Below, one piece after another: positions 7,722 through 16,850 of a stretch of 64,000 bases of DNA. Numbering within the stretch: the stretch's first letter is position 1; each line of letters starts with the position of its first letter. The stretch is from Pseudomonas brassicacearum (lineage in GTDB: Bacteria; Pseudomonadota; Gammaproteobacteria; Pseudomonadales; Pseudomonadaceae), in the NCBI RefSeq assembly GCF_009601685.2, contig NZ_CP045701.2, positions 1,426,001 through 1,490,000 of the forward strand, given 5' to 3'. A program made the translations under genes and the position numbers. Under the pieces are notes generated by a model. That model had not been told where the DNA came from, did no database searches, and was given only the letters and a program-made list of their open reading frames with translations.

Positions 7722-8485
7722 TTACGCTTCCCCCAGGTAGGCTTTGATCACTTCAGGATTGTCGCGGATCTGTTCCGGCGAACCGTCGGCCAGCGGCGTG
7801 CCCTGGTTGATCACGACGATATGGTCGGAAATGCTCATGACCAGCTTCATGTCGTGCTCGATCAGCAGCACGGTGACATCGTGCTCCTCGCGCAGCACGC
7901 CGATCAGCGCTTTGAGGTCTTCGGTTTCCTTCGGGTTCAGGCCGGCGGCCGGCTCGTCGAGCATGAGGATCCGCGGACGGGTCATCATGCAGCGGGCGAT
8001 TTCCAGGCGTCGTTGCTGACCGTAGGCCAGGGTCCCGGCGGTACGGTTGGCGAACTCCTTGAGGTTGACCTTGTCCAGCCAGTACTCGGCGTACTCCATG
8101 GCCTCGCGTTCGCTTTTGCGGAACGCCGGGGTCTTGAACAGGCCGGCAAAGAAGTTGGTGTTCAGGTGACGATGCTGGGCGATCAACAGGTTCTCGACCG
8201 CCGTCATGTCCTTGAACAGCCGCACGTTCTGGAAGGTACGCACCACACCCTTGCGGGCGATCTGGTGGCCGGGCAGGCCCTGGATCGGCTCGCCGTCCAG
8301 CAGGATGGTGCCGCCGGTGGGCTGGTAGAAGCCGGTCAGGCAGTTGAACACGGTGGTCTTGCCCGCGCCGTTGGGCCCAATCAGGGCAACCACCTGTTTT
8401 TCTTTTACGGTCAGGGCCACGCCGTTGACCGCCAGCAAGCCGCCGAAGCGCATGCTTAAATTTTCAACCTTGAGGATCTCGCGGC

Positions 8486-8489
<4 letters not shown>
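7722..8489 (-). CDS. braF: branched-chain amino-acid ABC transporter ATP-binding protein BraF/LivG
   Basis: A 255-residue ABC ATPase with Walker [10 protein letters not shown] near residue 38, signature-region [14 protein letters not shown] (the LivG-type variant lacking the canonical LSGGQ), Walker [14 protein letters not shown] and an H-loop histidine in [10 protein letters not shown]. LivG proteins have this slightly longer form with the [13 protein letters not shown] segment. It pairs with BraG to drive branched-chain amino-acid uptake. The start codon overlaps the end of braE by four bases, and braG starts immediately after its stop. Confidence 0.96.
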
Positions 8490-9738
<1,249 letters not shown>

Positions 9739-9742
<4 letters not shown>

Positions 9743-10662
9743 ACTTTCTCAACCTCCGGACGGCCCAGGATGCCGGTCGGCCGGAATAACAGAACCAGAA
9801 CCAACAAGCCGAATGCCACGACGTCCTTGTACTGGTCGCCGAAGATGTCGGCGCCAAAGGCTTCCGCCACGCCCAGCACCAACCCGCCGAGCATTGCGCC
9901 GGGAATGCTGCCGATGCCGCCCAGGACCGCGGCGGTGAAGGCTTTCAGCCCGACGAGGAAGCCGGCGTTGGGGTTGATCACACCGTATTGCATGCTCAAC
10001 AGCACCGCAGCGACGGCCGCCAGGGCCGCACCGATGACGAAGGTCAGGGCGATGATGTTGTTGGTGTTGATGCCCAGCAGGTTGGCCATCTTGATGTCCT
10101 CGGCGCAGGCGCGGCAGGCGCGGCCGAGGCGGGAACGGGAGATGAACAGCGTCAGGCCGAGCATGGCGACCAGGGTCACCACGAACACCACGATTTGCAT
10201 GTAGGAAATCAGCACTTCATGTGCCCCACCTGGCCCGAAGGCAATATTGCCGGGGATCAGGTTGGGAATGGATTTGTCCTTGGAGTCTTGCGAGAGCAGT
10301 ACCGTGTTCTGCAGGAAGATCGACATGCCGATGGCGGAAATCAGCGGGATCAGACGGTTGCTGCCGCGCAGGGGGCGGTAGGCGATCCGTTCGATGCTGT
10401 AGCCATAGGAGCTGGTGACGACGATGCTCGCGATGAAAGCCGCGGTCATCAACAGCGGGACACTGTCGAGTCCCATCATGCTCAGCCCGGCGATGGCGAT
10501 GAACGCCACGTAGGAGCCGATCATGTACACCTCGCCGTGGGCGAAGTTGATCATTCCAATGATGCCGTAAACCATCGTATAGCCGATGGCGATCAGGGCA
10601 TACGTGCTGCCAACGGTCAGGCCGTTAACCAGCTGCTGGAAGAAGTGATAGATGTCAGGCAT
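9739..10662 (-). CDS. braD: branched-chain amino-acid ABC transporter permease BraD/LivH
   Basis: A 307-residue integral membrane protein with about eight hydrophobic segments. Family motifs include [20 protein letters not shown] near the N-terminus, [16 protein letters not shown], and the EAA-like loop [16 protein letters not shown] that contacts the ATPases. It pairs with BraE. The gene is separated from braC by 230 bp containing a 12-bp perfect-stem hairpin, so its expression probably depends on read-through of that hairpin or on a weak internal promoter. A TAGGAGCGCTGTA sequence precedes the start and supplies the ribosome-binding site. Confidence 0.95.
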
Positions 10663-10842
10663 TACAGCGCTCCTAAAAACCTGATACGCATTTCACTGGT
10701 GGAGTCATTTTCCCGCCCGGGTCCCGTGGATCTGCATCCACTTCGAACACGAGGTTTGCCAGCGAACCGCTGATGACGGTTTTGAGATTTTCAGGTGGGG
10801 AGGCTGGCGGATCACGCCAGCGCGGCCCAATACATTTAAAAC

Positions 10843-10870
10843 AAAGCCCACGGCACGCCGTGGGCTTTAT
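10843..10870 (-). terminator. intra-operon hairpin/terminator between braC and braD
   Basis: AAAGCCCACGGC pairs perfectly with GCCGTGGGCTTT (12-bp stem, tiny loop), followed on the minus strand by a TTTAAATG stretch. It stands 23 bp after the braC stop. Such a partial terminator (or 3'-end-protecting hairpin) would give more braC mRNA than braDEFG mRNA, as binding proteins are usually needed in excess. Confidence 0.8.
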
Positions 10871-10892
10871 TGGCAGTCAGTCAGGCCAGGCC

Positions 10893-12020
10893 TTACTGAG
10901 GCGAAGCTTCGGTTTTAGGTTTGCCGAAATGCCACTCGTAGACCACGAACTTGAAGTCCTTCAGGTCGCCTTTTTCGTCGAAGCTCAGGTCGCCGGTTGG
11001 GGTCTTGAAGGTGCCTTTGTGGATGGCTTCAGCCACTTTGGTCGTGTCTTCGCTCTTGGCGGCTTCGATACCACCGGCAATCACCTGGACAGCGGAGTAG
11101 GACGGGAACACGAACGGACCGCTCGGGTCTTCTTTCTTGGCCTTGAAGGCATCGGCCAGGGCGATGTTGGCAGGGTCCTGGTCGAAGGATTTCGGCAGGG
11201 TCACCAGCAGGCCTTCGGAAGCTTCCTTGGCGATTTGCGAGATGGAGTCGTTACCCACGCCTTCCGGACCCATGAACTTGGCCTTCAGGCCTTTTTCCTG
11301 GGATTGACGCAGGATCAGGCCCAGCTCCGGGTGGTAGCCGCCGTAGTAGACGAAGTCGACGTTGGCTTGCTTGAGCTTGGCGATCATCGAGGAGAAGTCT
11401 TTGTCGCCAGCGTTCACGCCTTCGAAGACGGCCACTTTCACGCCTTTCTTCTCGAGGGTCGTTTTCACGGCGCTGGCGATGCCTTCACCGTACTGCTGCT
11501 TGTCGTGCAGGACCGCAACGATTTTCGGCTTGACGTAGTCGGCGATGTAGTTGCCGGCCGCCGGGCCCTGGGCGCTGTCCAGGCCGATGGTGCGGAAGAT
11601 CATCTTGTAGCCGCGAGTGGTGATGTCCGGGCTGGTAGCCGCCGGGGTGATCATGATCACGCCTTCGTCTTCGTAGATGTCCGAAGCCGGCTGGGTGGAG
11701 CTGGAGCACAGGTGGCCGATCACGAACTTGACGCCGTCATTGACGACCTTGTTCGCGACCGCGACCGCTTGTTTTGGATCACAGGCATCATCGTATTCAA
11801 CGGCTTCGAGTTTCTTGCCATCGACGCCGCCCTTGGCGTTGATTTGTTCAATGGCCATTTTCGCACCACTGAACTGCATGTCGCCGTATTGGGCTACAGG
11901 GCCGGTTTTTGGGCCGGCGATGCCGATCTTGATGGTGTCGGCGGCAAACGAATGGCTGGCAACCCCGGCCAGAACCATAGCGGCAAACAGTTTGGAAATC
12001 TGCTTAGTAGCCTTAGTCAT
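10893..12020 (-). CDS. braC: branched-chain amino-acid periplasmic binding protein BraC/LivK
   Basis: A 375-residue preprotein with a Sec signal peptide (MTKATKQISKLFAAMVLAG..., cleavage expected after SFA) and the Peripla_BP_6 leucine-binding fold. Recognisable stretches are GPKTGPVAQYGDMQFSGA, VNDGVKFVIGHLCSSSTQPA with the conserved disulphide cysteines (DDACDP and HLCSS), and the C-terminal VYEWHFGK. It closely resembles P. aeruginosa BraC, which binds Leu, Ile, Val, Ala and Thr. It leads the bra operon; the 340-bp upstream space holds its promoter and a 16-bp perfect palindrome about 100 bp before the start. Confidence 0.96.
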   Translation of the reverse strand: MTKATKQISKLFAAMVLAGVASHSFAADTIKIGIAGPKTGPVAQYGDMQFSGAKMAIEQINAKGGVDGKKLEAVEYDDACDPKQAVAVANKVVNDGVKFVIGHLCSSSTQPASDIYEDEGVIMITPAATSPDITTRGYKMIFRTIGLDSAQGPAAGNYIADYVKPKIVAVLHDKQQYGEGIASAVKTTLEKKGVKVAVFEGVNAGDKDFSSMIAKLKQANVDFVYYGGYHPELGLILRQSQEKGLKAKFMGPEGVGNDSISQIAKEASEGLLVTLPKSFDQDPANIALADAFKAKKEDPSGPFVFPSYSAVQVIAGGIEAAKSEDTTKVAEAIHKGTFKTPTGDLSFDEKGDLKDFKFVVYEWHFGKPKTEASPQ

Positions 12021-12360
12021 AGTGCTCCACTCATGCTGTTGTAGTTTTTATAGTCCTGGCGCCGTAGCAGCAGAACCGGGTCAGATATCTTGGATACCCT
12101 CGCGGAAAATGCCCCCGGCAACTGTACCGGTACAGTGTAGAGCGCCGATTGTTGGCAAGGGAAGCTGGCGCTTGGGGGCAAAACCTGAGGGTGTCGCTTA
12201 ATTGAAAGAAAAAGACAGAATGGCGGCGGTGGTTGTCCGGTCATGTCGGCAATCCTTGGCTTTCCTGCGCTTTTCAATCGGTACTGCAATTTGCTACCGG
12301 GTTTTTCTGCCAGACCACCGACGTTATCATTCGCGCCGATTTCTTTTCCGGACAGGTCCC
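12021..12360. other. divergent intergenic region braC / DUF2288 gene
   Basis: This 340-bp non-coding stretch contains the braC promoter on the minus strand and the DUF2288 promoter on the plus strand. The only strong structured signal I see is the perfect palindrome at 12121-12136. I found no small ORF with a convincing ribosome-binding site here. Confidence 0.6.
12121..12136. promoter_or_regulatory. 16-bp perfect palindrome ACTGTACCGGTACAGT
   Basis: Self-complementary over all 16 bases, 100-115 bp upstream of the braC start codon. TGTACCGGTACA-like palindromes are typical operators of GntR/MocR-type and some other dimeric regulators (family knowledge). The cognate regulator is not in this window. 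A role in braC control is inferred from position. Confidence 0.5.
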
Positions 12361-12666
12361 ATGAATCAAGAACCTAGCACCCTCTATGCCAAGCTGCTTG
12401 GTGAAACCGCATCCATCACCTGGAAAGAGCTGGAGCCGTTCTTTGCCAAGGGTGCCCTATTGTGGGTCGATCCGGCACTGGATTTGATCGCCGCCGCCGA
12501 GGCCGTCGCCCAGGACGAAGGTACCAAAGTCGCCGCCTGGCTGGCCGCCGAGCAGCTCGCCAAGCTGTCTGAAACGCGGGCGCTGGATTTTCTGGAACGC
12601 GATCCGCAGCTTTGGGCAGTGGTGGTTTCGCCCTGGATTATGATCCAGGAAAGGGCGTCGAACTGA
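12361..12666 (+). CDS. DUF2288 family protein
   Basis: A 101-residue cytoplasmic protein matching the small DUF2288 family by its pattern LYAKLLGETASITWKELEPFFAKGALLWVDP and the terminal PWIMIQ. The sequence is helical and acidic, with no signal peptide or cysteines. The start ATG 12361 is preceded by GGACAGGTCCC; a longer frame from 12202 would add 53 residues of non-coding character and is not supported. No function is known for the family. It stands alone between braC (divergent) and the FtsZ/tubulin-like gene (convergent). Confidence 0.85.
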   Translation: MNQEPSTLYAKLLGETASITWKELEPFFAKGALLWVDPALDLIAAAEAVAQDEGTKVAAWLAAEQLAKLSETRALDFLERDPQLWAVVVSPWIMIQERASN

Positions 12667-12794: not shown

Positions 12795-12815
12795 GCAGCC
12801 TTTGGGCTGCTCAAT
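12795..12815 (+). terminator. putative terminator after the DUF2288 gene
   Basis: Short hairpin GCAGCC-TTTG-GGCTGC followed by TCAATTGTTT. It lies 130 bp after the stop codon and its T tract is weak, so termination is plausible but not certain. Confidence 0.45.
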
Positions 12816-12852
12816 TGTTTCTGGATGTTGTCTCGGTGGTGTATTCAGGCCG

Positions 12853-12940
12853 CCTTCGCGAGCAAGCCCGCTCCCACATGGAACCGCGTTTCTTCAGAAC
12901 GAATGCGGTCCACTGTGGGCGCGGGCTTGCTCGCGAAAGG
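12853..12940. repeat. paired REP-like element (GCGAGCAAGC/GCTTGCTCGC family)
   Basis: Two inverted copies of CCTTCGCGAGCAAGCCCGCTCCCACA face each other with about 35 bp between. The same family occurs at 24599, 33225, 35588, 38506, 53985 and 57512. It separates two convergent genes. Confidence 0.85.
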
Positions 12941-12963
12941 GGCGACGCGGTGTTGCGCCTGCA

Positions 12964-15141
12964 TCAATAAGTCTTGCCCGTATGGTTATTCAGCGAAATA
13001 ACCTTGGTCTTGCCAATGCGATGACGGTAGATCTCGCGCAGGTACTTGATGGATTTTTTCACGCAGTCGCGGGACAGGCGGATGTCGTTGATCGAGACGA
13101 ACTTGTCCTTGTCGTTGATCAGCTCGCGGTACTTCTTCTCGTACATCGGCTTGATCGCGTACCAGTTGGTGTCGAGGATCTTCGCCGGGTTTTCGAATTC
13201 GTTAAGCAGGTCGTCGATGCGTGCTTCGTCGAAGTCTTCATTGATGATGAAGTCCAGGATCGAGTTGTCCAGGGTGTCGTCGAAGCGGTACGGGGTGCGG
13301 GCGAAGCAGCGTTTGATGAAGGCCACGATCAGGGTCAGGAAGTCGTCCGACAGGCACGGGCTCTTGGCGATCAGGGTGGTCAGCGACAGGTTGGCCGACG
13401 CGCCGATCACCAACGCGTACCGCTTGAGGGTGGTGTTGGGGAACAGGCTGTTGAGGTGGGTCTTGAGCCGGTTCAGGTCCATGTAGGACAGCTTGTAGTC
13501 CTTGGGCAAGGAGACGATGGACACCACCGACGAGCAGTTCTTGAAGAAGTGCAGGTCATGCAGGGCCGCGGCGTCGTAGCCGGAGTTCTTGTACTGCTCA
13601 AGCGACGCTCGGTAGCGCTTGGATTCGATCGGCAGCAGGCTGATGCCTTCGATGGCCTGGGTGACTTTGTTGAAGTGCGGCAGGTCGATGGAGCGGAAGA
13701 ACAGGTCATCGATGTTCAGGCGCGGCGGTTCTTTCTCGAACACCTTGAACTTGTCGCCGCTGGGTGCCGGGGTTTCCGGGACGACGGACTCGGCGTAGGC
13801 AATCGCCACCGGGCCGGCCAGGCTCATGAACAGGTCGTTGGCGTCCAGGCGAATGGTTTCGCCAATGTCGATGCCGGCACGGCGGAAGTAGTTCTGGTCG
13901 TAGTCGGTGGTGACCGCCTGGGCCGTCAGGATGTTGAAGATCTGTTGGGAGATGTACTGGTTGGCGTGCTTCTCCATGGCATTGACATCGATGTTCTGGA
14001 TGTTGCCGTCATCGCTTTCTTCGGCGTAGCGCATGATGTCGTTGGAGATCAGCATCATCGCGTTCCAGGGGCGGATACGGCCCATCACGCTGGCTTCGCT
14101 GCTGTCTTCGTTGGCGAAGTTGTACGAGAAATCCCATTCTTCCGACAGGTACTTGCACAACAGGCGTCCGGCGTTGATGTGCAACGCCTCGGACATTTCG
14201 CTGCGGTGGTCGGAAATGTTCGGCAGCACGCAGATACCGCTGGTGAAAATCGGCTCGAAGACGAAGGAATGACCGCTCTTGCTGTCGTGTTCGTCCATCG
14301 GCTTGGTGTCGAACGTCTTGTTCATGTACGAGTATTGCTGGGCCAGGCCGAATTCCGAGGCCATGCCCGAACCAGTACCACCGCCGGCGCTGAAGATCGA
14401 GAAGTACAGGCGCGACTGGTTGGCCTTGATGCCGCAGCTGTCGATCAGGTACGAGTGGATCATTTTCCAGTCGGGGCTGGAGAAGCGCTGGGTGTCCTTG
14501 TTCAGGATGATCTTGGCCAGGTACTGGCCCAGGATCGGCGCGTTACCGGCGCCCCCGGCATGGACTTCCGAGAGGTCCATGATTTTCATCTTGCTGTAGT
14601 CGCGCAAAAAGCCGCTTTTCTCGCCCTTGCGCGAGAAACGGATGCGCCCGGCGATGTCCTTGTCCAAGTCACCCAGCATCACCAGCGGTTCCACCAGGAA
14701 CACCGGTTTGCTGGCCTTGCTGGTGCCCAGGCGCAGGTTGTTGCGGATCCACTGCGCGGGGCTGTAGCCCTTGTCGCTGTAGGCCTTGTCTTCGGCGTTG
14801 AATTCGTTGAGGTAGAACTTGCGGGCGTTGTACACCAGCTCTGCCACGTCCAGGGCGATGTTGGAGCCGCAGCGCCCGAGGCCGATCAGGCACACCGACG
14901 GGAATTCCTGCTGGGCGCGGTCGCTCTCGTCTTCCACCAGATGGGGCGGTCGCGGGAACACCGCGTCGCGCAGGCCATCGAGGTTGTCGAGGATCCGGTC
15001 GGTGTTGGTTTCGGTGAAATACAGATACTGCTGAGTCGAAAGGGGACGCGAGCTGCTCGATGGTTTCGAGGCTTCAGGGCCATTGGCGGCCGGGCTCAGG
15101 GTCAGATCGGATACCGCAGTGGCTGTTTTTTTGGAAGTCAT
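12964..15141 (-). CDS. large FtsZ/tubulin-like GTPase-fold protein (orphan)
   Basis: A 725-residue protein with an FtsZ/tubulin-type nucleotide-binding domain. Seen in order: a Ser-rich, probably disordered N-terminal ~45 residues; loop T1 GLGRCGSN (~87-94, compare GVGGGGGN in FtsZ); AGGAGNAPILGQ (~196-207, compare GLGAGGNPEVG); the tubulin signature SAGGGTGSG (~251-259); and RLDANDL (~431-437) where FtsZ has its catalytic T7 loop NxDFADV, keeping both acidic residues but with Arg for the first Asn. About 290 further residues have no motif I recognise. No transmembrane segment is evident. Length is far above FtsZ (~390), recalling the Tubulin_2/FtsZ-like families proposed to act in membrane remodelling. 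ATG 15141 (MTSKK) is chosen over 15186; neither has a strong ribosome-binding site. Not in an operon. Function unknown. Confidence 0.8.
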   Translation of the reverse strand: MTSKKTATAVSDLTLSPAANGPEASKPSSSSRPLSTQQYLYFTETNTDRILDNLDGLRDAVFPRPPHLVEDESDRAQQEFPSVCLIGLGRCGSNIALDVAELVYNARKFYLNEFNAEDKAYSDKGYSPAQWIRNNLRLGTSKASKPVFLVEPLVMLGDLDKDIAGRIRFSRKGEKSGFLRDYSKMKIMDLSEVHAGGAGNAPILGQYLAKIILNKDTQRFSSPDWKMIHSYLIDSCGIKANQSRLYFSIFSAGGGTGSGMASEFGLAQQYSYMNKTFDTKPMDEHDSKSGHSFVFEPIFTSGICVLPNISDHRSEMSEALHINAGRLLCKYLSEEWDFSYNFANEDSSEASVMGRIRPWNAMMLISNDIMRYAEESDDGNIQNIDVNAMEKHANQYISQQIFNILTAQAVTTDYDQNYFRRAGIDIGETIRLDANDLFMSLAGPVAIAYAESVVPETPAPSGDKFKVFEKEPPRLNIDDLFFRSIDLPHFNKVTQAIEGISLLPIESKRYRASLEQYKNSGYDAAALHDLHFFKNCSSVVSIVSLPKDYKLSYMDLNRLKTHLNSLFPNTTLKRYALVIGASANLSLTTLIAKSPCLSDDFLTLIVAFIKRCFARTPYRFDDTLDNSILDFIINEDFDEARIDDLLNEFENPAKILDTNWYAIKPMYEKKYRELINDKDKFVSINDIRLSRDCVKKSIKYLREIYRHRIGKTKVISLNNHTGKTY

Positions 15142-15500
15142 TGTGCGCCATATGCCTGAACTGGTTGGTTCGACGAGCGCTGTCATCGAACCATCGCGGA
15201 TGGGAGCTCGCGTCCTGGGATGGCGCGAAGGTCGGCCCGAGCGTCCAGGGCTACAGCCTGGGCGCCGCTCGAGAGATTCTTTCCTGATAGGTTGAATCGG
15301 CCACCGGGAGACGATCTTTAATCACGAATGGGCGAAATGATGGCAATTGTTACAGGGAGTTGACCGTTATCAAGAAACGCGCTGCTCGCCATGGTCGGGT
15401 ATCAGCCTTGCGAATGATTGGAGACAGCGCCCGTGCCGCTGTCTAGATTGCATATCCAGGCCACGGATCGTTGGCCCATAACAATAAAAGAGACGGACCC
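15142..15500. other. divergent intergenic region, FtsZ/tubulin-like gene and MFS gene
   Basis: This 359-bp space must hold both promoters. The stretch 15142-15290 is GC-rich and could encode the alternative N-terminus of the tubulin-like protein up to 15186; 15300-15480 is more AT-rich. Apart from an AANAANAA motif just before the MFS start I see no palindrome or RNA hairpin of note. Confidence 0.5.
15480..15487 (+). promoter_or_regulatory. AANAANAA motif (possible Crc/Hfq target) before MFS gene
   Basis: AACAATAA lies 13 bp before the start codon at 15501 and overlaps the ribosome-binding region (AAAAGAGACGG). In Pseudomonas such A-rich motifs at translation starts are bound by Hfq with Crc for carbon catabolite repression. 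Match is by eye only. Confidence 0.45.
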
Positions 15501-16850
15501 ATGCAGAACTCGACCCAAGCGGCGAATGCCTGGCGCATTCTGTTCCTGTTGTTCCTGGCCAATCTGTTCAACTTCTTCGACCGCACCATCCCGGCGATCA
15601 TCATCGAGCCGATCCGTATGGAGTGGAGCCTCAGCGACTTCCAGATCGGCATCATCGGCACCGCCTTCACCATCGTCTACGCCATTGCCGGCTTGCCATT
15701 GGGACGCATGGCCGATACCGGTTCGCGCAGCAAGTTGATGGGCTGGGGCCTGGCGACCTGGAGCGCGCTGACGGCGGTCAACGGCCTGGTGGGCAGTTTC
15801 TGGGCGTTCCTGGTGGTGCGCATGGGCATCGGGATAGGCGAAGCCAGCTACGCGCCGGCAGCCAACTCGCTGATCGGCGATCTGTTCCCGGCTCATCGCC
15901 GGGCGCGGGCGATGGGTATCTTCATGCTAGGCCTGCCGATCGGCCTGTTGCTGGCGTTCTTCACCATCGGGGCGATGGTCAAGGCCTTCGACAGCTGGCG
16001 CGCGCCATTCTTTATCGCGGCGGTGCCAGGCTTGGTGCTGGCGTTGTTCATGTTCTTCATCAAGGAGCCCAAGCGCGGGGCGGCGGAAACCGTGCAGGTT
16101 TCCCAGGAAAAGGTCGACCGGCCGATTCGTCGGGTGTTGGCGATTCCTACCTTCCTGTGGCTGGTGCTGGCCGGGTTGTGCTTCAACTTCGCGACCTATG
16201 CTTGCAACTCCTTCCTGGTGCCGATGCTGCAACGCTACTTCCTGATGCCGTTGCACGAGGCGGCGGTTGCCACCGGGATCATGGTGGGCGTGACCGGGTT
16301 GTTCGGCTTGACCCTCGGCGGCTGGATCGCCGACAAGATTCATCAGCGCGTGCCCAGTGGCCGCTTGCTGTTCGCCGCGTTCAGCCTGGTGATCTCGACG
16401 CTCACCACCGCCTGGGCATTGCATGCCGGGCGGATTGAAATCGGCGTGTTCGTCGCGGTGTTCAGTGTCGGCTGGTTGTTCGCCTATACCTTTTATACCT
16501 GCGTGTACACGGCGATCCAGGACGTGGTCGAGCCGCGCTTGCGGGCCACGGCGATGGCGCTGTTCTTCGCCGGCCTGTACTTGCTCGGCGGTGGCCTGGG
16601 GCCGGTGGTGGTGGGCGGCTTGTCCGACTACTTCGCCCGCACGGCCATGGCGGCCGCGGGTGTCGAGCAAATGAGCGAAGCGTTCAAGGCCATCGGCTTG
16701 CACGACGCCATGTACCTGATCCCGGTCGCGTTGTTCCTGACCATGGTGTTCCTGTTCCTGGCGTCACGTTGCTTCGTGCGCGACGCCAAGCGGATGAAGG
16801 ATGGGATGAGCGCCGTGGTGGTGCCCGAAGGTGTCGTGGCGACGGCCTGA
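15501..16850 (+). CDS. MFS transporter, spinster/GudP-like
   Basis: A 449-residue major facilitator with 12 predicted transmembrane helices. N-terminal FLANLFNFFDRTIPAIIIEPI is the typical first helix and loop of the spinster-like subgroup (FxDRx), followed by the loop 2-3 signature GRMADTGSRSKLM and RMGIGIGEASYAPAANSLIGDLFP of helix 4-5. The central loop (PKRGAAETVQVSQEKVDRPIRR) separates the two six-helix halves. Substrates of bacterial relatives are poorly known and include organic acids and lipids, so I do not assign one. ATG 15501 (MQNSTQ) has GAGACGG upstream; the alternative at 15471 is less likely. It is monocistronic. Confidence 0.85.
   Translation: MQNSTQAANAWRILFLLFLANLFNFFDRTIPAIIIEPIRMEWSLSDFQIGIIGTAFTIVYAIAGLPLGRMADTGSRSKLMGWGLATWSALTAVNGLVGSFWAFLVVRMGIGIGEASYAPAANSLIGDLFPAHRRARAMGIFMLGLPIGLLLAFFTIGAMVKAFDSWRAPFFIAAVPGLVLALFMFFIKEPKRGAAETVQVSQEKVDRPIRRVLAIPTFLWLVLAGLCFNFATYACNSFLVPMLQRYFLMPLHEAAVATGIMVGVTGLFGLTLGGWIADKIHQRVPSGRLLFAAFSLVISTLTTAWALHAGRIEIGVFVAVFSVGWLFAYTFYTCVYTAIQDVVEPRLRATAMALFFAGLYLLGGGLGPVVVGGLSDYFARTAMAAAGVEQMSEAFKAIGLHDAMYLIPVALFLTMVFLFLASRCFVRDAKRMKDGMSAVVVPEGVVATA

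Follow-up and report, generated by a model that had tools for sequence, protein, structure and literature searches.

FtsZl2 of Pseudomonas brassicacearum, a tubulin-family protein with a possible link to bacterial motility

What does a bacterium that has FtsZ for division do with a second, much larger protein of the tubulin type? The question is raised by a gene in a 64,000-nucleotide stretch of the Pseudomonas brassicacearum chromosome (contig NZ_CP045701.2, positions 1,426,001 to 1,490,000), which we call the window. A previous sequence-only reading had singled the gene out as an orphan carrying FtsZ/tubulin GTPase loops and as a candidate for an undescribed cytoskeletal or membrane-remodelling system. 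Our analysis identifies the protein as a member of the FtsZl2 family, preceded by a conserved promoter-type element of the flagellar sigma factor FliA and recurrently accompanied, in other genomes, by genes for enzymes of cyclic-di-GMP (c-di-GMP). These two features are a concrete lead for a family that was left without a functional clue in 2010. Our best model, which we put somewhat short of an even chance, is a guanosine triphosphate (GTP)-binding tubulin homologue of motile cells, linked to the switch between motile and sessile life. Bacterial tubulins are known to act in division and in the positioning of plasmids and phages; if the model is true, motility would be added to these jobs.

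The loops listed by the sequence-only reading are all present and in the FtsZ/tubulin order (GLGRCGSN, HAGGAGNAPILGQ, SAGGGTGSG and RLDANDL, for T1, T3, T4 and T7; Table 1), and a T6-like SND can be added to them. Their spacing, described as roughly that of FtsZ, is so only in a loose sense, as about 165 residues separate T1 from T4 in this protein against about 85 in FtsZ. Conservation was followed in 252 proteins, namely the window's own and 251 relatives taken from lists that each comprised the best 120 of about 650-670 matches; the most distant relatives among the matches listed are about 57-60% identical, and remoter ones may exist. GRCGSN is present in 252 of 252, and position 198 in the T3 loop is A in 231 and S in 21. 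The Arg that replaces the leading Asn of the FtsZ T7 loop, already remarked upon together with the retention of both acidic residues, recurs in all 252 proteins, which marks it as a trait of the family and not as a defect of this one copy. In our judgement, such a series of ordered invariant motifs lies far beyond chance. The gene runs on the minus strand, a detail that the sequence-only reading had left out. An alternative in-frame ATG at 15186 would give a protein of 740 residues; the sequence MTSKK or MTSKN is kept in 25 relatives and the frame preceding it varies in length and sequence, so that the ATG at 15141 is the likelier start.

FtsZl2 was named in 2010 by Makarova and Koonin, who found the family through its GGGTG(S/T)G motif, with PFL_1302 of Pseudomonas fluorescens Pf-5 as type protein (PMC2875224; statements on this source are limited to its accessible text). 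According to these authors, FtsZl2 proteins possess all nucleotide-binding motifs, including T6 and T7, and a C-terminal region of about 300 residues without relatives; they typically coexist with FtsZ, are predicted to form filaments, and have no associated genes and no functional clue (PMC2875224). The window's protein shares these traits: it is proteobacterial, has GGGTG(S/T)G together with T1, T6 and T7, and ends in a large extra part (residues 438-725), as the sequence-only reading had noted, without known relatives. All of its Pfam matches lie N-terminal to this region, as does the one NCBIfam match (insignificant, E 0.088, residues 317-404), and the only match within it is an insignificant one in PHROGs (E 0.33). 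Between the window's protein and its counterpart in P. protegens FD6 (L085) the identity is 93%; strain Pf-5 is likewise a P. protegens. The window's protein matches the FtsZl2 family, and no essential difference from it was seen. The term 'orphan' fits the locus but not the family; the pointer to the FtsZ-like families of Makarova and Koonin was well aimed, and 'undescribed' no longer applies to a family in print since 2010 (PMC2875224). Our full-text literature search found no later functional work on FtsZl2, the one further match being a paper on ClpP and FtsZ.

Profile comparison with the two families that had been suggested, Tubulin and Tubulin_2, gave matches to both, each below its threshold: 18 bits (E 0.0037, cut-off 33) for PF00091 and 14.2 bits (E 0.027, cut-off 27) for PF13809. 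A phmmer search of FtsZl2 against PDB sequences returned nothing up to E 10. We place the protein in the FtsZ/tubulin superfamily on its ordered, invariant T1-T3-T4-T6-T7 loops and on a published result, in which HHpred matched the type protein to PF00091 (E 0.0033; PMC2875224), not on any model made here. It shares the motifs and their order with FtsZ but is nearly twice as long, differs at the T7 Asn, scores below the Pfam threshold, lies in no division cluster and is absent from many Pseudomonas. It resembles FtsZl1, a name that covers the same group as Tubulin_2 (PMC9871819, accessible text), in that both are divergent, FtsZ-like and extended by a large C-terminal part; however, FtsZl1 has a coiled coil, operons containing vWA genes and no recognisable T6-H7, which is not the case for FtsZl2 (PMC2875224), and the window's protein falls short of the PF13809 cut-off. 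TubZ and PhuZ belong to the same superfamily, but the window's protein has no plasmid or phage relatives in the records searched.

What lies upstream of the gene gives the first lead to its role. Alignment of 19 Pseudomonas loci revealed two conserved blocks, both of which fit the FliA (sigma-28) consensus TAAAGTTT-N11-GCCGATAA; the core of the element at these loci is TAAAG-N14-GCCGAT. This consensus has been cited for P. aeruginosa and applied to P. fluorescens MFE01, where a fliA mutant lost expression of flgM, flaA, fliS and motA as measured by quantitative reverse-transcription PCR (PMC7286023, accessible text). In the accessible text of another study it is attributed to Salmonella, and it was not found before one FliA-affected gene of P. 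aeruginosa (PMC4866697). We scanned 120 FtsZl2 loci, of which three were dropped for too little upstream DNA; TAAAGN3-N11-GCCGATN2 occurs in 86 of the remaining 117, and the spacer is exactly 11 in 86 of 86 although 10-12 was allowed. The 31 other loci comprise 2 near matches (L090, L124), 12 deep-branch Pseudomonas and 17 loci from outside this genus.

The element was then assessed in 89 loci of the window's clade (the window, L015-L094, L124, L125 and L164-L169) chosen without regard to it. Deep-branch Pseudomonas were left out because the earlier scan had found the element absent there, and the 80 loci L015-L094, the best among at least 445 confirmed ones, are biased to close relatives. Removal of L062 and L168, in which the script located no start, left 87 loci with 32 non-redundant upstreams. 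The element is present in 85 of the 87 loci and in 30 of the 32 upstreams, in which the -35 and -10 octamers hold 1.81 and 1.83 bits per column, compared with 0.74 for the spacer and 0.98 for all other columns; the start region is the second most conserved block. Among all patterns of the form 5+14+6 in the 260 nt upstream of the window's gene, the element is the most widely common (29 of 31 other upstreams). It is also the sole copy in the window, where 0.018 would be expected (4e-5 per 300 nt of one strand). This test on loci selected blindly upholds the promoter element. By eye, the site matches 12 of 16 consensus bases. When 400 kb of the same genome were scanned for sites with at least 12 of 16 bases and a CGA core, 16 were found, and 6 of them precede genes whose Pfam names are FliS, a CheA-type kinase, FlgK, a CheV-type (CheW-receiver) protein, flagellin and a methyl-accepting chemotaxis protein. 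As a separate observation, four deep-branch Pseudomonas loci (L121, L170, L171, L174) share a different conserved upstream block, CTCGAAC ... GCTGTATATAGTGCT, which is perhaps another type of promoter.

The second lead comes from neighbouring genes. In 75 of 99 FtsZl2-bearing Pseudomonas, FtsZl2 is preceded within 1.3 kb by a same-strand MHYT-GGDEF-EAL gene, orthologues being counted from 56% identity among the matches listed and rows at 51%, 47% and about 40% being excluded as paralogues. The gap is below 500 bp in 24 of these genomes and 500-1300 bp in 51; in both loci of the latter class checked by BLAST (L085, L124) a gene on the opposite strand intervenes. In one other genome (G063) the MHYT gene is directly downstream, and in three it is on another contig. 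We also read up to about 9 kb of flank around 32 FtsZl2 loci picked for phylogenetic depth and for lack of the MHYT orthologue, not at random; GGDEF and EAL genes were called with regular expressions, here and in further loci of family f172, and eight proteins were checked with Pfam. At least one c-di-GMP gene occurs in the flanks of 13 of the 32 loci, every one on the FtsZl2 strand, and in eight loci it lies within 220 bp of FtsZl2. An ammonium-transporter-like GGDEF-EAL gene is downstream in L108, L110, L113 and L115 and upstream in L114 (Pfam: L108, L114); an NMT1-GGDEF gene is upstream in L121 and downstream in L173; and an MHYT-GGDEF-EAL gene is downstream in L163. Three types of enzyme therefore occur on either side of FtsZl2, always on its strand. 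A GGDEF-EAL query gave 26-69 first-look candidates per Pseudomonas genome among the matches listed, about 1% of genes, so that same-strand adjacency is expected in only some 1-2% of contexts. The 5-6 independent adjacencies in about 20 contexts look far above chance, on an estimate that is rough since the association was spotted only after the neighbourhoods had been read. The published observation that FtsZl2 has no associated genes is thus not upheld (PMC2875224), as c-di-GMP genes recur beside it in several lineages, though not in the window.

Two side observations concern these neighbours. In five of seven f174 loci (L108, L110, L113, L114 and L115) the ammonium-transporter-like domain is fused to PAS-GGDEF-EAL in frames of 1023-1040 codons. 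In L118, whose genome belongs to a small order (3 genomes), a gene for a 640-residue protein without Pfam match (L118:5001-6923) follows FtsZl2 after about 80 bp in the same orientation, and the next gene encodes a PAS-GGDEF-EAL protein.

FtsZl2 is present in 99 of 149 sampled Pseudomonas genomes and is patchy elsewhere in gammaproteobacteria, its source genera including Rheinheimera, Arsukibacterium, Alkalimonas and Cellvibrio. It was found in 5 of 299 genomes of the phylum sample, 13 of 244 of the order sample, 9 of 163 of family f172 and one of three of the small order of G184; two class-wide samples gave 2 of 274 and 2 of 369, in each case the window's genome and one other. In 98 of the 99 positive Pseudomonas the gene matches at a single place, and in the remaining one (G076) two matches to different parts of the protein lie at neighbouring places on one contig. 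No trace of FtsZl2 was detected at E 1e-3 in seven FtsZl2-lacking Pseudomonas loci, which were chosen for having the MHYT orthologue; DUF2288 and LivK genes flank all seven, and an MFS gene was detected in 5 and a HIBADH-type gene in 3. The FtsZl2 gene is a discrete present-or-absent unit. With a view to horizontal transfer, FtsZl2 and FtsZ of five genomes were compared with the window's proteins; FtsZl2 is more similar than FtsZ in three of five pairs (G549, 71/62%; G184, 76/67%; G829, 74/70%) and less similar in two (G714, 60/69%; G665, 83/88%).

All 26 genomes searched, including 18 with FtsZl2, have a true FtsZ, and the window's genome has its own, separate one at 5.39 Mb. Cell division was rejected as the main role on this ground, in line with the earlier statement that the gene is not linked to division. 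A defence system was likewise rejected, given the lack of any PADLOC match for FtsZl2 and the conserved chromosomal locale.

How could these features be brought together? FtsZl2 would bind GTP, and probably hydrolyse it and self-assemble, as a tubulin/FtsZ superfamily member that has large inserts and a C-terminal region of its own. In the window's clade it would most likely be transcribed by FliA and thus made after completion of the hook-basal body, alongside flagellin and chemotaxis proteins; the surrounding DNA suggests, for many Pseudomonas, joint production of this protein and the flagella. Polymers or oligomers that it forms in a GTP-dependent manner could organise part of the motile cell. 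Our best guess is polar or chemosensory organisation, for example of the flagellated pole or the chemotaxis arrays, or alternatively the re-forming of either in the daughter cell. Its activity may be tied to c-di-GMP, the signal of the motile/sessile switch. In its fullest form the proposal is that swimming bacteria have a tubulin-type cytoskeleton of their own, a late-flagellar, GTP-driven polymer that is coupled to local c-di-GMP enzymes, organises the flagellated pole or chemosensory machinery or ensures its inheritance, and is turned off upon surface attachment; we regard this version as doubtful. Both leads are new relative to the literature searched: no link of FtsZl2 to FliA or c-di-GMP was found in publications on FliA regulons and on tubulin-like proteins and c-di-GMP, whose supplements were not searchable, and the main text of a FleQ chromatin immunoprecipitation sequencing paper mentions neither tubulin nor FtsZ.

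Several results weigh against a motility-linked FtsZl2. The c-di-GMP association fails in the very genome analysed: there is no c-di-GMP gene near FtsZl2 in the window, whose genome is among the 20 of 99 without an MHYT orthologue at the 56% cut-off. Conversely, 27 of 50 Pseudomonas lacking FtsZl2 have the MHYT gene, and none of nine f172 loci has a c-di-GMP gene next to FtsZl2 (one locus, L193, lacks upstream DNA); in one of the nine, a GGDEF gene is located 4.2 kb upstream, on the opposite strand. No FliA-type site was seen just upstream of the MHYT gene in the main-clade loci read. The FtsZl2 site itself deviates from the consensus at two bases in each octamer (6 and 8 in the -35, 7 and 8 in the -10); the choice of the 400 kb stretch followed the expected place of the flagellar cluster (1.78-1.85 Mb in the related strain F113), and the other 10 of its 16 sites are not obviously before motility genes (their genes were not Pfam-scanned). 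The element is absent from the 12 deep-branch Pseudomonas and 17 non-Pseudomonas loci scanned, so that FliA control, should it exist, would not go back to the ancestor of the family. One third of the sampled Pseudomonas (50 of 149) do without FtsZl2, which is therefore not needed for a general function there. Structure prediction, proposed earlier as decisive, neither bore out nor refuted the fold: AlphaFold gave a mean predicted local distance difference test score (pLDDT) of 40.3 and a predicted template modelling score (pTM) of 0.30 for the full length (44-row alignment), and 44.1 and 0.34 for residues 36-725 (97-row alignment), probably because every relative used is at least about 57% identical. 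Local hhalign against 24 FtsZ sequences aligned the T4 loop only (E 0.035-0.037, probability about 1.4%). In the global comparison, the score of 5.39 falls within the range of 30 column shuffles (best 5.65). A by-eye likeness between the C-terminal part and the C-terminal domain of FtsZ is unsupported by such low-confidence models and is not claimed.

Other explanations share part of this evidence. The protein could be a GTP switch or nucleotide sensor that does not polymerise, head-to-tail filament growth being blocked by the T7 Arg and the big inserts; the Arg in 252 of 252 proteins, the long inserts and the large C-terminal region would all fit. In FtsZ the active site of one subunit is completed by the T7 loop of the next, and the invariant T7 acidic residues and near-invariant T4 loop of FtsZl2 are as expected from such contacts, which, with the filaments predicted for the family (PMC2875224), makes a pure switch rather unlikely to us. 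A comparable standing is due to the view that local synteny has by accident placed the promoter element and the c-di-GMP genes beside a gene whose product has an unrelated housekeeping role. The main-clade MHYT gene indeed belongs to the locale with or without FtsZl2, but the element stands out from its flanks across 32 non-redundant upstreams, and three types of c-di-GMP enzyme are each met on either side, depending on the genome, and always on the FtsZl2 strand; we consider this view unlikely too.

Membrane remodelling, which the sequence-only reading had offered, was argued by Makarova and Koonin from the gene context of FtsZl1 and not for FtsZl2 (PMC2875224). By analogy within the superfamily, FtsZl2 could nevertheless be an envelope scaffold of that kind, unrelated to motility. 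In the neighbourhoods that were read, mostly as translations of open reading frames, we noticed no conserved gene of the vWA, OmpA or protein-kinase kind, and none of 15 neighbour proteins scanned with Pfam, only part of the neighbours, matched these families; such a role seems distinctly improbable. Finally, the discrete presence or absence of the gene at one chromosomal site might be expected of a plasmid- or phage-type segregation tubulin such as TubZ or PhuZ carried into the chromosome. Against this stand the single matched place in nearly all positive Pseudomonas and a scan of 72,556 plasmid records and 50,697 phage records, as well as of viral contigs, which gave no match to FtsZl2; plasmid or phage segregation was rejected on the latter ground, and we attach very little probability to such an origin.

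Table 1. Features of the FtsZl2 locus (positions in the window)
Feature	Position	Strand	Remarks
DUF2288 protein neighbour	12358..12666	plus	conserved locale marker, not part of the system
FtsZl2 protein, 725 residues	12964..15141	minus	ATG at 15141, stop ends at 12964; open reading frame translation and homologues
C-terminal region, residues 438-725 (288 residues)	12967..13830	minus	open reading frame translation; no confident structure model
T7-like RLDANDL, residues 431-437	13831..13851	minus	string in 252/252
T6-like SND, residues 366-368, between T4 and T7	14038..14046	minus	N367 in 251/252, D368 in 252/252
T4 tubulin signature SAGGGTGSG, residues 251-259	14365..14391	minus	GGGTGSG in 251/252
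T3 loop HAGGAGNAPILGQ, residues 194-206	14524..14562	minus	counted positions 194-200 and 205 invariant except A198
T1 loop GLGRCGSN, residues 87-94	14860..14883	minus	positions 87 and 89-94 invariant in 252/252; position 88 not counted
Sigma-28 (FliA)-type element TAAAGATC-N11-GCCGATTC	15294..15320	minus	152 nt upstream of ATG 15141
Major facilitator superfamily (MFS) transporter neighbour, divergent	15501..16850	plus	conserved locale marker, not part of the system

Beyond the DUF2288 gene, positions 7722-12020 of the minus strand hold genes of the branched-chain amino-acid ATP-binding cassette (ABC) transporter type (ATPase, two permeases and binding protein, judged from translations); such genes beside DUF2288 make up a conserved Pseudomonas locale. 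The plus strand carries an open frame of 785 codons (12802-15159) antisense to FtsZl2 over its whole length; codon usage most likely accounts for it. A second divergent FtsZ/TubZ-like open reading frame was met in another genome (L155; G800:C166:6891-7397, minus strand): an open frame of 403 codons with SAGGGTGSG, it scores 54 bits against PF00091, and its fragmented genome also has FtsZ and FtsZl2.

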